From a virus: DNA of 33,437 nucleotides. Shown here one piece after another: positions 6,942 through 28,327 of this stretch. Positions within the stretch are counted from its first letter, which is position 1, and each line of letters starts with the position of its first letter. The notes below the pieces were generated by a model that had not been told where the DNA came from, ran no database searches, and saw only the letters and a program-made list of their open reading frames with translations. The translations under genes were made by a program, and so were the position numbers. The stretch spans positions 1 through 33,437 of the IMG/VR virus record IMGVR_UViG_3300010354_000314; one strand, given 5' to 3'.

Positions 6942-6968
6942 AAGGGGGCTTTCGCCCCCTTCTTTTTT
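6942..6968 (+). terminator. Strong terminator after gp32, shared by converging genes
   Basis: GGGGGC (6944-6949), loop TTTC, GCCCCC (6954-6959), extended by two A-T pairs and followed by TTCTTTTTT (6960-6968). On the other strand the A-rich flank supplies a shorter T-tract, so it may also stop leftward transcripts, although the T-run overlaps the stop codon of the 860-aa lysin gene. Confidence 0.9.
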
Positions 6969-9549
6969 ATGATACCATTGAGCCCGCTCTAGCTCTTCTA
7001 TTGACCGAAATACTATTACTTCCTAATGCTTCTACTAAAGCACCTGCGACACCAGCACCTAATACTTCGGCAAAACCTCCAGTAGGTGTAACTGTCGGTA
7101 TCGAATCAACACCAAACCTTCTTGTGCTTGGAGTAGTGTGAGTTGTTTGATTTTGTGGTCCTACTGTAGAAGATCTTTGTTGTCTCGGTGCATACGACAT
7201 TTCTGTTGATCTTCTACCAATATCTTCACCAATTCTTATCTGTGGTTGTACCGGCCTTAAAGCACTCTGCGCAAGATTTCCTACTGCGCTGCCAAGCATG
7301 CTACCAATAAATCCTCCTGCAGGACCTCCTCTGCTACCTAACATACCACCTATCATACCGCCTATTCCACCAAGACCACCTCTTCCCATCATTCCCATTC
7401 CACCTATCATACCCATGCCAGGCATCATACCACCTCTTCCCATCATTCCTATTCCGCCCATACTCATGCTAGGCATCATACCACCACCTAGCATGCCACC
7501 AATACCTCCACCTATTCTTCCACCGGGCATACTGATTCCAGCACCTCCACTCGGAGAAGCTGTCATTCTACCACCCGGTTGACTGCCACCAGCACCTCCT
7601 CTAGATTCATTTTCACCACCGGCCATAGTACCACCACGGGCATCGCCAGAGCCTCCTGATCCACCTTCTCTCTCGCCAGCAGAGAAATGCATTGTATCTT
7701 TAGAAGAACGCCAATCACCACCCCAACCTAATCCATACTTACGTGCCATTGCAGATATATTTGCTGGCATATCTGTCTTGCCATAATTTGGATTTCCCGG
7801 AAACGTGTGAGGATTTTGTGATGGGTTAATATCAATGGCCATTCCTTTAGAATGATAACTAAATCCACCAGCAGCAGTTGTTCTATTAGCATATCCTCCA
7901 ATAGAATTAATTTTATAACCAGATCCTTCTAGCTCATTAACAAAACCTTCAAACTTATCAGCGTGTTCAGCAGCTACTTGATATGGTCTACCGCCAGGTG
8001 TTTTTAATGTAACCATACCACCTTGCTGTCGTCTTTGGCCACCACCTATTCTTTCACTTCCACCACGACTTCCTTGCCAAGGTTCTGGACCAGCTCTATC
8101 CTGTGGATACATTGCTTGTGTATCAGTACCACCACCACGTGTTTGAGAAGGATGTTGTGGCAATACTCCTGACATGGTTTGTGTTGGCACACCTGCATCA
8201 TTTGTAGGTGTTTGTGGTAAAGTTTGTCTATTAGTATCTACTGTTGTCGGAGCTGGTGATGATCCTCCGGTAGTTGGAGCCGCTGTAGGATTTTGACTTG
8301 TTCCAGATTGTGGAGTTGAACCTCCAGCTGTATTTCTATTACTTCCTGAATATATAGAATATACAGATGGTGCCCATCTTGGATTAACTGTATTATAACC
8401 ACCAGCAACTAAATTGGATAATGTTTTCTGCGGATCATCCGAATATCGATTTCCCCATCTTTTAATATGGTGTTTAATTGCAGACTCTAAACTGTCATAA
8501 ACAGCGTGTTGCTGACCATCAGCACCTCTAGTTCCACCTACAATTCCATCTTTTCCTATTTGACTTTGTACTATTGTTTGACCAAATGGATTATTAGCTC
8601 GCGCTGTCATCGAGCTTTTTAGCCAACCGGATTCTAACATAGCTATAGCTGCAGTTAGCTTTGGATCTGGAGAACCAGCTTTTCTAGCTGCTTCTTCAAT
8701 CTTAGCAAAAGCTTCTGCATTAGAACCAGTGAAATTTGTTGGTGCTGGTCTTGCATCTTGATTTGGCTGATATGATCTGCCGCCACCGCCAGTTGAAGCT
8801 ACACTAGATCCAGGAGTTACTCCGGAAGAACTTTGTGATTGTGATGCTCCTGGAGTTGTAGTACCTTGAGTTGCATTAGAAGGTTGTGCATTGGATCCGG
8901 ATCCCATAACTGCTGAAGTTCCAGCTGCACCTGCTGCAGCTCCAACTGCACCCGCTGCACCAAGACCTAGAGCTGCCCTTCCTGCTCCACCTCTACCTCC
9001 ACCACGTCCTCCACCTCTTCCTCCACCGCCAACTGGTGGAGCGCTATTAGTAATATTATTAGTAACGTTATTAGTAACGTTATTAACAGTTTGTTCTATT
9101 ACTGGTGGAGGTTCTTTTTTATAGAGAAGTCGATTTATGGTTATCTCAATTCTTTCTTGAGATAATAACATATCTTCTAATTTATCATCTAGTCTTCTAA
9201 GTCTTCTATTAACTGACGTTAGACTATTAGCTATACTAGTATTTTGTTCTTTTATTCCAGAAATTTCACCTGTCAATCTACTATTGGATGAAGTCACTGA
9301 ATCCGCAAAAGACTTACTAAAATTTTTTTTTGACTCTTCCGGATTAGCTATAGCTCTTCCTAAAGTTCCAAAATTTTTAGAAGCACCAGATCTGAAATCT
9401 CTACTTACTATTTTTCTAAAAGATTCTGGACTTTGATCATTTAATCTAGAATTTACATATCTTCCCGCGCTGCCAAATCTTTCGGCAGCGGCTTGACCAA
9501 ACCCTTCTTTTAATGCAGCTTTTACTCTATCTGATAAACTTTCAGCCAT
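6967..9549 (-). CDS. Virion-associated lysin with glucosaminidase and M15 peptidase domains, 860 aa
   Basis: This is a modular protein. Residues 1-145 are helical, with a coiled coil at about 95-140. Low complexity follows: VNNVTNNVTNNITN (155-168) and GGGRGGGRGG. A FlgJ-type glucosaminidase domain spans about 275-405 (ETAIAMLESGW-like 'AAIAMLESGWLKS', catalytic candidate Glu306; NNPFG). A Pro/Thr/Gly linker precedes a zinc M15 endopeptidase domain at about 511-625 (SYHSKGMAIDIN with His566 and Asp573, and DTMHF with His621). A Gly/Met-rich stretch covers about 670-755, with a hydrophobic C-terminal part. It cuts both glycan and peptide bonds of peptidoglycan. It follows gp48 and gp26 in one operon, so it is probably a baseplate or tail component rather than a holin-dependent endolysin. 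No signal peptide is seen. Its start overlaps the frameshift extension stop. Confidence 0.85.
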   Translation of the reverse strand: MAESLSDRVKAALKEGFGQAAAERFGSAGRYVNSRLNDQSPESFRKIVSRDFRSGASKNFGTLGRAIANPEESKKNFSKSFADSVTSSNSRLTGEISGIKEQNTSIANSLTSVNRRLRRLDDKLEDMLLSQERIEITINRLLYKKEPPPVIEQTVNNVTNNVTNNITNSAPPVGGGGRGGGRGGGRGGAGRAALGLGAAGAVGAAAGAAGTSAVMGSGSNAQPSNATQGTTTPGASQSQSSSGVTPGSSVASTGGGGRSYQPNQDARPAPTNFTGSNAEAFAKIEEAARKAGSPDPKLTAAIAMLESGWLKSSMTARANNPFGQTIVQSQIGKDGIVGGTRGADGQQHAVYDSLESAIKHHIKRWGNRYSDDPQKTLSNLVAGGYNTVNPRWAPSVYSIYSGSNRNTAGGSTPQSGTSQNPTAAPTTGGSSPAPTTVDTNRQTLPQTPTNDAGVPTQTMSGVLPQHPSQTRGGGTDTQAMYPQDRAGPEPWQGSRGGSERIGGGQRRQQGGMVTLKTPGGRPYQVAAEHADKFEGFVNELEGSGYKINSIGGYANRTTAAGGFSYHSKGMAIDINPSQNPHTFPGNPNYGKTDMPANISAMARKYGLGWGGDWRSSKDTMHFSAGEREGGSGGSGDARGGTMAGGENESRGGAGGSQPGGRMTASPSGGAGISMPGGRIGGGIGGMLGGGMMPSMSMGGIGMMGRGGMMPGMGMIGGMGMMGRGGLGGIGGMIGGMLGSRGGPAGGFIGSMLGSAVGNLAQSALRPVQPQIRIGEDIGRRSTEMSYAPRQQRSSTVGPQNQTTHTTPSTRRFGVDSIPTVTPTGGFAEVLGAGVAGALVEALGSNSISVNRRARAGSMVS

Positions 9550-9730
9550 TATTTCTAGCCTTTTGATCTTCTTCTAGTTTCTTCAAATAATTATTCAGAA
9601 GAGTAACATATATATCTCGTTCAAATGGTAGTATATTTTCAAGATCTTCTATTGAGTATTTATGATGCTGAACCAAACTAAAGATTGTTTGATAATAGTT
9701 CTCTAGTGTGTTATGGCTCAGCGAAAGGAA
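9542..9730 (-). CDS. 51: gp51-like extension of gp26, read by -1 frameshift, 62 codons
   Basis: After the gp26 slippery site the -1 frame is open for 62 codons and ends TGA at 9544-9542, overlapping the ATG of the next gene. It reads FLSLSHNTLENYYQTIFSLV, then QHHKYSIEDLENILPFERDI and YVTLLNNYLKKLEEDQKARN. The 'PFERDIYVTLLxxYLKKLEE' motif is typical of the second product of tail-assembly chaperone pairs in myophages and of small T4-type gp51-like proteins. The frame has no ATG or GTG start with a ribosome-binding site, so it is most simply made as a gp26 fusion of about 296 aa. The coding frame is well supported; the expression route is inferred. Confidence 0.7.
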   Translation of the reverse strand, partial: FLSLSHNTLENYYQTIFSLVQHHKYSIEDLENILPFERDIYVTLLNNYLKKLEEDQKARNNG

Positions 9731-10431
9731 AAAAAATCAGTTAAATTTGTTAATACTATTTGTCTATCATGATCTAATGAATTTTTATAATTTATTTCAT
9801 ACTTCATGTATGGTATATTATTAAAGAAATACTTGATCTCATCATATACTTTAACAGGTAGATTTTCTAAAAATTCGAGTATCTCTTCTTTGGTAAGATT
9901 CTTAAAGTCATCTACTTCTTCACCAACATAAATCTTATCTAAACAAGAAAGTATTAAATACTCAATTACATCTTGACCATCTTGTTTTAACAATTGTTTA
10001 TCATCATACAATTTAGCTGTAGGATATTTTAATGTTACAGAGATATTATCTGTAATCTTAACATTATTGGAAACATCTTCTGGAAAAACTACTTCTATCT
10101 TATTTAAATCTATAGCAAAACTATAAGGTTTTTCATCTTCATTATCGATGTAACTAACATTAGTTATATTACCAATAGAAAAACATCTTATCTTAATAAA
10201 GATATACTCTAAATCAAAGATGGTAAAATCATTCACATCAATATTAGGTGTGATGATGCAGTTATTAACTACTTGCTTTAAAGCAGTTAATATATCAGCT
10301 TCATCAGTACTTTCTTTTGCCATAAGAAGAATCTTTTCTTCTTTGACTAATAGAGGTCTTATTCTTATCTTCTTCTTGTTAGAAGGTATCGTCACATCGC
10401 TTGTTGGATGTGTAATTTTAGGCAATGACAT
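9718..10431 (-). CDS. 26: Baseplate hub/assembly protein gp26-like, 237 aa
   Basis: The N-terminus MSLPKITHPTSDVTIPSNKK then KIRIRPLLVKEEKILLMAKES matches the T4 gp26 family (T4 baseplate hub subunit, PF12322 type); about 237 aa against 208 in T4. 'VKEEKILLMAKES' and a C-terminal LEFLENLPVKVYDEIKYFFN are the clearest conserved parts. The start follows TGGAGTGAAATAAT. Near the 3' end GAT TTT TTT TCC contains the perfect slippery heptamer T-TTT-TTT within a run of eight T (9736-9729), and the -1 frame beyond it stays open with a gp51-like sequence. The unshifted product ends FSFR. It lies between gp48 and the tail lysin in the leftward late operon. Confidence 0.78.
   Translation of the reverse strand: MSLPKITHPTSDVTIPSNKKKIRIRPLLVKEEKILLMAKESTDEADILTALKQVVNNCIITPNIDVNDFTIFDLEYIFIKIRCFSIGNITNVSYIDNEDEKPYSFAIDLNKIEVVFPEDVSNNVKITDNISVTLKYPTAKLYDDKQLLKQDGQDVIEYLILSCLDKIYVGEEVDDFKNLTKEEILEFLENLPVKVYDEIKYFFNNIPYMKYEINYKNSLDHDRQIVLTNLTDFFSFR
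9729..9736 (-). promoter_or_regulatory. Slippery T8 run for -1 ribosomal frameshifting in gp26
   Basis: Minus strand GAT TTT TTT TCC gives U-UUU-UUU in the zero frame, where both tRNAs can re-pair after a -1 shift. The zero-frame stop TGA (9720-9718) is three codons downstream, while the -1 frame remains open for 62 codons. I did not find a clear downstream stimulatory hairpin or an upstream Shine-Dalgarno-like stimulator. Confidence 0.65.
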
Positions 10432-10451: not shown

Positions 10452-11495
10452 TTAGGGTTCAAATGCTCCTGGACCTGCACTAGATCTAACTTCTTCTACC
10501 GCTTGGATGCCTTGAACAGCTGCTTGATTCCAGCTAGTCAAGTTAGTCATGTTTGGTGTCATACCACCTTCTCTAACATCTGCTCTAGCGTGCTGACCAG
10601 CTAACCAGTATTCTAATTCCCAGAAAGACATCTTTAATATAATAGTTTCCGGTTCACCATCTTTATGAAATGTTGGTGTTCCAGAGCCATAATAATTTAT
10701 GCTGCATGCGGTGCATACACTTGGTTTAAATCTATAAAGAAACTGAGGATGAGAAAATTGAATATTAAATACAGCAGGAAATGTAAAGAAAGCTCCTCCG
10801 AGTTCTATTCCTGGTGCCATCCAGTTGTTTACATCTGCTACCATATTTTTTAAATTAATTGATTCTTGTAAATTTTTAGGAGAGAGTTTCCAAGTAAACT
10901 CATGCATCTTATATGTTGGACCTTTTAATAATAATACTTGAAAATTGTTTATAGCTAGACCTGTTATAGCAGAAGCACTAGCACTAAGACTACCTCCAGT
11001 AGCAGCATCAAATCCTCCTCCAACAGCAGATAATATACCAGCTAATATACCACCACCGGCCATAGAGAGATTATCAGTTATTGGAGAATCACTACCTCCT
11101 GGACCAAGTCTCGTATCTCTACCAGTTAATGTATTAAATATAGATGCTCCTGCACCAACTGCTATTGCTCCTGTGAATCCTAGATCCGTAGGTGTATATT
11201 CAACTCTTTGTGTATCACCAAGTTGCATTGGCATTGGTAATATAATTTGTGCTAAACTATTACCTCTTGCTACTTCCATAGCATTTATTCTAGCATACTT
11301 TTGTACACCAATACAAATATAAAATTTAGGATTATCTGAAATAAATTGATATCTTTGTAACCTTGCAGCATCAATAGCGTTTTGCGCAATTACTTCTTGA
11401 GGAGATAGCCTTGAAGCAGCAGTCAACGGTGATTGATTTCTGGCTTGTAGAACACCCGTTGAATTTGATTGGTTGGTCTGTAAATTAGAAGGCAT
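10452..11495 (-). CDS. 48: Baseplate tail-tube cap gp48-like, 347 aa
   Basis: T4 gp48 caps the hub and starts the tail tube with gp54. The evidence is length (T4 gp48 about 364 aa) and the segments QRYQFISDNPKFYICIGVQK, GPTYKMHEFTWKLSPKNLQE, FNIQFSHPQFLYRFKPSVCT and the C-terminal ILKMSFWELEYWL. A Gly/Ala-rich middle (about 115-185: GAIAVGAGASIFN, GGGILAGILSAVGGG) looks like a hydrophobic helical insert. The start follows AGGAAAAAAG. Its ATG is only 22 bp from the oppositely oriented gp4 ATG, so its promoter must lie inside gp4; a TATAAATA late motif is found there at 11590-11583. Confidence 0.78.
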   Translation of the reverse strand: MPSNLQTNQSNSTGVLQARNQSPLTAASRLSPQEVIAQNAIDAARLQRYQFISDNPKFYICIGVQKYARINAMEVARGNSLAQIILPMPMQLGDTQRVEYTPTDLGFTGAIAVGAGASIFNTLTGRDTRLGPGGSDSPITDNLSMAGGGILAGILSAVGGGFDAATGGSLSASASAITGLAINNFQVLLLKGPTYKMHEFTWKLSPKNLQESINLKNMVADVNNWMAPGIELGGAFFTFPAVFNIQFSHPQFLYRFKPSVCTACSINYYGSGTPTFHKDGEPETIILKMSFWELEYWLAGQHARADVREGGMTPNMTNLTSWNQAAVQGIQAVEEVRSSAGPGAFEP

Positions 11496-27853: not shown

Positions 27854-28327
27854 ATGTTATATCCTCTTAGAGAAAATTTTTATATAACCATTAACGGTGA
27901 TACAGAACCGGCGTATCAAGAGTTTCAAATAGTTTCTCAGCCTGTAGCTACATATGTCTATGTTCCACCGACAACCGGAACTGGTGTCGGTGGTACTGGT
28001 GTTGGTGGTACTGGCGTAGTTACTACAGGAGAAGTAACTACAGGCACAGGTGGTACAGATTGGACTGGTACTGGTGTTGGTGGAACAGGTGTTATAACAA
28101 CTGGTGTCGGTGGAACTGGTGTTGGAACTGGTGTTGGTGTAGATTATCCAGTATATGATGACGGCGATGATGGTGGAGATGATGACGATGATGATGATGC
28201 ACCATGCACAGGAGATACTGATACAACTGGCGATACATGTACATGTGCTGATGCCGAAGATGACGATGATGATGACGACGATGATGATGACGGTGATGAT
28301 GACGATGGTGATGATGATGGCGAATGA
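27854..28327 (+). CDS. Gly/Thr/Val-repeat protein with poly-Asp C-terminus, 157 aa
   Basis: No family is recognised. Residues 1-40 look like an ordinary small domain (MLYPLRENFYITINGDTEPA, QEFQIVSQPVATYVYVPP). Residues 41-96 are near-perfect repeats of GTGVG/GTGVV type. Residues 97-157 are dominated by Asp (about 33 of 61) around a short Cys-containing core, APCTGDTDTTGDTCTCADAE (Cys118, 129, 131). ATG 27854 follows AAGGT. It stands between two virion structural genes and is read in the same direction, so it is probably a structural or host-contact protein. Glycine repeats could form extended or polyglycine-type helices, and the Asp tail could bind Ca2+ or mimic DNA charge; these are guesses. 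Confidence 0.7.
   Translation: MLYPLRENFYITINGDTEPAYQEFQIVSQPVATYVYVPPTTGTGVGGTGVGGTGVVTTGEVTTGTGGTDWTGTGVGGTGVITTGVGGTGVGTGVGVDYPVYDDGDDGGDDDDDDDAPCTGDTDTTGDTCTCADAEDDDDDDDDDDDGDDDDGDDDGE
27974..28324 (+). repeat. Low-complexity GGTACTGGTGTT repeats followed by a GAT/GAC tract
   Basis: From 27974 to about 28141 units close to GGTGGTACTGGTGTT recur, with synonymous drift among copies. From about 28153 the DNA is mostly GAT and GAC codons. Such tracts can change length by slippage. All visible copies stay in frame within the 157-aa gene. Confidence 0.75.

Follow-up and report, generated by a model that had tools for sequence, protein, structure and literature searches.

A stretch of viral DNA of 33,437 nucleotides (nt; IMG/VR record IMGVR_UViG_3300010354_000314), whose full length is referred to as the window, carries on its minus strand a gp26-type gene followed by a second, overlapping reading frame in −1 register. 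With a probability of roughly 90%, the sequence signals described below point to −1 ribosomal frameshifting, by which this T4-like myovirus would make a pair of tail assembly chaperones (TAC), the short TAC-N and the long TAC-NC. A programmed −1 frameshift and a likeness to tail assembly chaperones had been proposed in the initial annotation of the window, and both are well supported. In the proposed mechanism, the majority of ribosomes would terminate at 9718 and yield the short form (gp26, TAC-N), while a minority would slip by −1 (tandem slippage) on U_UUU_UUU at 9736–9730, probably aided by a hairpin (9722–9667) located 7 nt downstream, to give a long form of 296 amino acids (aa; TAC-NC). 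The tape-measure protein would be coated by many copies of the short form and few of the long one, whose C-terminal domain would bring in the tail-tube protein, as for lambda gpG/gpGT; in T4, the same two products are supplied by the separate paralogous genes 26 and 51.

The minus-strand gp26 frame ends with GAT (9738–9736) TTT TTT (9730) TCC TTT CGC TGA (9720–9718), leaving three sense codons between T_TTT_TTT (9736–9730) and the stop, which confirms the perfect U-UUU-UUU heptamer first noted at this distance. A −1 slip at the heptamer would open 62 codons (9730 to 9545) ahead of a stop at 9544–9542 and result in a product of 234 + 62 = 296 aa, the codon number and fusion length predicted at the outset (Table 1). 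The −1 stop, TGA, lies inside the next gene (ATG 9549–9547, ATGGCTGA) with an overlap of 8 nt, rather than exactly at the next gene start as first described. Protein family searches assigned the zero frame to PF12322 T4_baseplate over the whole domain (E 5.4e-52) and to phrog_150 "baseplate hub" (E 7e-54). For the −1 frame the match was to phrog_634 (E 2.7e-26), named "baseplate hub assembly catalyst", with a further match to the C-terminal columns 231–281 of phrog_150, which hints that family members with both parts in one protein exist. A search of NCBIfam gave no family for gp26 and none for the −1 domain. Weak Pfam matches of the −1 domain to integrase SAM-like and HaeIII families were below the family cut-offs and were discarded.

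Scanning IMG/VR gave 80 relatives (81 loci with the window), from which a non-redundant set of 61 sequences, including the window, was obtained by dropping those more than 90% identical; the median pairwise identity of this set was 50%. The −1 domain was found in all relatives except one cut by a contig end, and in every testable locus (80 relatives minus the one at the contig end, plus the window) the gp51 domain sat in the −1 frame. A zero-frame stop was located 1–3 codons past the heptamer in 81/81 loci. Within the non-redundant set, a zero-frame X_XXY_YYZ heptamer, either T_TTT_TTT or T_TTT_TTC, was conserved in 61/61 sequences, written as GAT-TTT-TTT in 60 and as GAT-TTT-TTC in one. Retention of the T-run and the −1 frame by related phages had been named initially as a check of the prediction; the frame was kept in every testable locus and GAT-TTT-TTT in 60/61 sequences. 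Elsewhere in gp26 the same codons mix T and C (GAT 74%, TTT 67%), GAT-TTT-TTT was expected from codon usage in 33% of sequences, and other conserved Phe columns of the same alignment contained 8–28 TTC among about 55–60. Outside the slip site, the 13,954 codon positions of gp26 in the relatives held in-frame TTTTTT[TC] only 4 times. The naive chance probability of this conservation is 10^-29, a value that overstates the case because the sequences share ancestry. Judged by these comparisons, the slip signal is real and strongly conserved, far beyond chance. In the −1 frame, the three codon positions diverge by 0.36/0.22/0.53, the pattern of a translated protein, and selection at the protein level is visible.

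The same arrangement, T_TTT_TT[T/C] followed by a −1 TAC-C-like open reading frame (ORF), was present in the isolated phages S-PM2, phiM12, HTVC008M, P-SSM7, Melnitz, SRB7757, Atu_ph04, Mendera, AS-zj, SH-Ab15599, VH7D, pf16, OC, F86 and ACG-2014e, which belong to Kyanoviridae, Emdodecavirus, Pootjesviridae, Menderavirus, Straboviridae outside the T4 group, and others. In the records of isolated phages looked at, the −1 part was annotated as its own gene or left unannotated; GenBank lists a separate small gene for it in S-PM2, phiM12, HTVC008M and others. This annotation would agree with two proteins, the −1 ORF being a free-standing small gp51 translated by reinitiation past the gp26 stop, and TGATG or TAATG overlaps that would permit reinitiation are found in the distant phages Mendera, F86, K476 and RHph_I34. 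Against it, a start preceded by a Shine–Dalgarno sequence (SD) for the −1 ORF was found in none of the 61 non-redundant sequences, and separate translation was rejected. No ATG precedes the conserved core of the −1 domain in 37/61, and in the window the sole start-like codon ahead of this core is a TTG without SD, 44 nt past the gp26 stop, in agreement with the initial statement that the −1 ORF has no start with a ribosome-binding site. A free-standing gp51 with its own start, the finding named initially as refuting the fusion, was not seen with a ribosome-binding site among the examined relatives of the window's group. Separate translation further leaves the invariant heptamer and the hairpin unexplained, and T4 gp51 holds both domains in one protein; two independent products are very improbable.

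Several phages differ at this site. TAC-C-like −1 ORFs without a canonical heptamer follow the gp26 homologue in Kuttervirus (L094:4711–4899, L111:2211–2399) and in the Vibrio phages K476 and D492 (L092:4693–4902, L112:2142–2345), where the codons at the Kuttervirus and Vibrio phage sites read ATT TTC ATT TAA, CTT TTT GCG TAA and CTT TTC AAG TAA. The long form of these phages may be made by a non-standard slip or, in the Vibrio phages, by reinitiation at TAATG. In Rhizobium phage RHph_I34 (L107:1484–1513) the slip site is degenerated to GAT TTT TTG CAC TGA, and a TGATG overlap could start the downstream ORF; this site is possibly a step between frameshifting and reinitiation.

Runs of eight T (T8) are classic sites of sequencing error, and a homopolymer error in sequencing or assembly would imply true frames that fuse directly. 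The probability of this is negligible: 80 relatives and many isolated phages keep the same frame relation, and contig L002, from a different sample, is identical to the window at the slip site with the same T8, whose length had been named initially as a possible source of refutation. An error was consequently refuted by comparison with relatives and isolated phages. T7–T8 runs can also make RNA polymerase slip in some bacteria. With the T8 of the window, stuttering of the polymerase could produce mRNA of altered length and ordinary translation could then give the fusion. L052, S-PM2, P-SSM7, AS-zj and VH7D, however, break the run to T6 + C with T_TTT_TTC kept. Transcriptional slippage is less likely because such relatives interrupt the T-run but keep the tandem-slip heptamer, and the covarying hairpin at a fixed short distance fits a ribosomal stimulator; it is regarded as improbable.

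In the window, GCUGAGCCA (9722–9714) pairs with UGGUUCAGC (9675–9667) in a hairpin, absent from the initial annotation, that starts 7 nt past the heptamer, within the spacing of about 5–9 nt typical of programmed −1 frameshifting; 9/9 pairs form, with −18.9 kcal/mol and a z-score of about −6. Across the 61 sequences, the 60 nt downstream of the heptamer were much more stable than shuffles, with a mean z of −3.46 compared to −0.37 for gp26 controls (p 9e-21), and more stable also than random synonymous recodings of the −1 frame protein, with a mean z of −3.37 (controls −0.03 and −0.51). In the named stem 86% of cells were paired, compared to 22–38% with the partner slid, and 8 or 9 of the 9 pairs form in 45/61 sequences. 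Two-sided changes were found in 7/9 stem pairs, amounting to 34 two-sided cells versus 10.1 in shuffles, a number reached by 0/500 shuffles. One middle pair ties amino-acid choices about 15 residues apart: opposite Ser AGY the partner column is mostly C, opposite Asn AAY mostly U (Fisher p 5e-5, uncorrected for relatedness). Some relatives build the hairpin with a different 3′ partner; L009, L052, L069, L075 and L077, which form fewer than 8 of the named pairs, have a different strong hairpin starting 2–9 nt past the heptamer. A clear hairpin is missing from the relatives L023, L057 and L068 and from the isolated phages HTVC008M, P-SSM7 and Atu_ph04, and the structure is weaker or absent also in L084, L086 and L089. 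Two caveats apply to the hairpin: RNAalifold found no consensus structure in the alignment (138 columns), and the counted stem had been chosen beforehand from the fold of the window itself, with relatedness inflating the counts. From its conservation and position, the hairpin probably stimulates the frameshift.

T4 gp26 (208 aa, PF12322 8.8e-64) and T4 gp51 (249 aa, PF12322 3.9e-52) are paralogues, encoded by adjoining genes on opposite strands, and the extra C-terminal tail of gp51 matches phrog_634, as does the −1 domain of the window. For the comparison with T4, hidden Markov models (HMMs) were built from relatives of the window only, T4 being left out against circularity. The −1 domain HMM found the gp51 C-termini of T4-like phages (T4 15.5 bits, relatives up to 26.4), with a best score of 9.7 among 1,800 shuffled sequences, and a virtual-fusion HMM scored T4 gp51 at 27.4 and relatives up to 45.8 (best shuffle 8.2). 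Because gp26 and gp51 are paralogous and the extra C-terminus of gp51 matches the −1 domain, gp26 is the short form and T4 gp51 the counterpart of the fusion; by these profile matches, the zero-frame product corresponds to T4 gp26 and the predicted frameshift product to the whole of T4 gp51. The initially proposed gp26–gp51 fusion is right in effect, with the qualification that the −1 ORF corresponds to the C-terminal ~50 residues of T4 gp51 only. In phage RB43 (L113:1501–2794), the ORF immediately after the gp51-type gene has a gp26-like end (LRGLEAFLKVVG), an arrangement consistent with a local gene duplication behind the two-gene layout of T4.

Table 1 Features of the gp26 locus of the window
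Feature	Position	Strand	Length or basis
gp26-type zero-frame ORF, TAC-N (short tail assembly chaperone)	9718..10431	minus	237 aa; PF12322, phrog_150
Slippery heptamer T_TTT_TTT inside the T8 run (9729–9736)	9730..9736	minus	sequence and relatives
−1 frame ORF, putative TAC-C domain, resembles T4 gp51 C-terminus	9542..9730	minus	62 codons + stop; phrog_634
Hairpin 5′ arm GCUGAGCCA, 7 nt past the heptamer	9714..9722	minus	fold of the window
Hairpin 3′ arm UGGUUCAGC	9667..9675	minus	9/9 pairs form in the window
Possible inner helix of the hairpin, 9700–9707 with 9677–9684	9677..9707	minus	minimum free energy structure of the window alone
Next gene, tape-measure position	6967..9549	minus	860 aa; glucosaminidase + M15 peptidase domains
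Upstream gene, tail tube cap / tail-tube-like protein	10452..11495	minus	phrog_230 E 4.5e-37

The gp26 gene lies between the tail-tube-cap-like gene and the 860-aa gene, whose position is close to that of the genes annotated as tape measure in HTVC008M and phiM12. The 860-aa protein contains a long Gly/Met-rich tract and an N-terminal region that is likely a coiled coil. Family searches gave no named tape-measure match for it, and BLASTP comparison with the tape measure of HTVC008M and with a fragment of a downstream cyanophage gene returned low-complexity or chance matches only; it is a candidate tape-measure protein with built-in cell-wall enzymes. At a distance from this locus, a low-complexity plus-strand ORF (27854–28327) encodes Thr/Gly repeats (TGVGGTGV) and, after them, a long stretch rich in Asp.

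An AlphaFold2 model of gp26 was confident (predicted local distance difference test score, pLDDT, 88.7), and the structures closest to it were viral baseplate hub/gp26 models. The highest-probability hits listed from the PDB were 3fgx (probability 0.51) and HK97 gp13 (2ob9; probability 0.41), with E about 2. As E is about 2, the modelled fold link of gp26 to tail assembly chaperones is only suggestive. Three observations speak against the tail assembly chaperone reading: the match to the tail assembly chaperone HK97 gp13 (2ob9) was weak (template modelling score to target 0.40, E 2.0), a PDB sequence search with the gp26 profile retrieved no relevant chain, and T4 gp26 and gp51 are traditionally viewed as chaperones of baseplate hub assembly, gp51 being needed for it but missing from the particle (PMC3004832). 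The frameshift could accordingly be real with products that serve baseplate hub assembly only. The logic of short and long forms and the site between tail-tube-like and tape-measure-position genes nevertheless match lambda G/GT. In addition, the hub and tape-measure views need not conflict because the tape measure of T4, gp29, forms part of the hub (PMC3004832). A function restricted to the hub is therefore considered unlikely, more probable than either translation as two proteins or transcriptional slippage.

The proposed pair resembles several known systems. In lambda, gpG and gpGT attach to the tape measure, and the extension of gpGT draws in the tail-tube protein (PMC5009743). With lambda and other long-tailed phages (Xu, Hendrix and Duda 2004; PMC5009743) the window would share a −1 frameshift close to the 3′ end of a small chaperone gene, ahead of a gene in the tape-measure position, and the resulting short and C-terminally extended forms, whereas the protein family of the window differs by sequence, and its site is U_UUU_UUU with a downstream hairpin. 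A 2016 review described the G-T frameshift as widely conserved "except T4" (PMC5009743). Pakpunavirus Adele and Andersonviridae share a conserved poly-T −1 site and the TAC-N/TAC-NC logic, but are other phage families with another site, GTTTTT (PMC12846349). Sullivan et al. 2010 (PMC3037559) reported that gp51 of cyanophages and marine vibriophages is missing the initial ~200 residues. The cyanophage "gp51", about 60 aa long, is identified here with the −1 frame domain of the window. The ~200 residues would be missing because of the frameshift, the missing part being gp26.

For T4-like phages themselves, the system has a published precedent. The abstract of the study in question reportedly describes frameshifting as apparently conserved across several T4-like groups, with T4 relying on genes 26 and 51. 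In that study, Vladimirov, Gautam and Davidson (2022, Virology 566:9–15) identified TAC genes in T4-like phages; of the papers citing it, one credits it with poly-T slip sites in the TAC-N genes of such phages (PMC12846349) and another with the short and long forms being separate copies in some of them (PRFect, PMC10885494). The initial remark that such a fusion had not been described for gp26/gp51 of T4-type phages does not stand: as far as these passages describe it, the frameshifted TAC of T4-like phages was already published in 2022, with the PF12322 family, the short and long products and the poly-T site in common, and the window adds another member. T4 itself differs in having two genes where the window virus would use a frameshift. 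The citing passages on Vladimirov, Gautam and Davidson 2022 do not mention a hairpin, and the conserved, covarying and re-formed hairpin, together with the wide sampling in uncultivated viruses, may be new. On balance we lean towards a two-part signal in T4-like phages outside the T4 group, a U7 slip site and a conserved hairpin a few nt downstream, where the hairpin would be rebuilt with different partners per lineage at a nearly fixed position, and in T4 a duplication of the gene into 26 and 51 would have taken the place of the signal.

If true, the hairpin would be a new detail on an already published system. The "60-aa gp51" of cyanophages and relatives would be the end of a frameshift product and no separate gene, a relation seen in dozens of uncultivated viruses, and many database entries would therefore be wrong. 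For T4 gp26 and gp51 this would mean a testable function, as short and long versions of a single chaperone, and the hairpin is an obvious place to measure how the ratio of short to long form is set.

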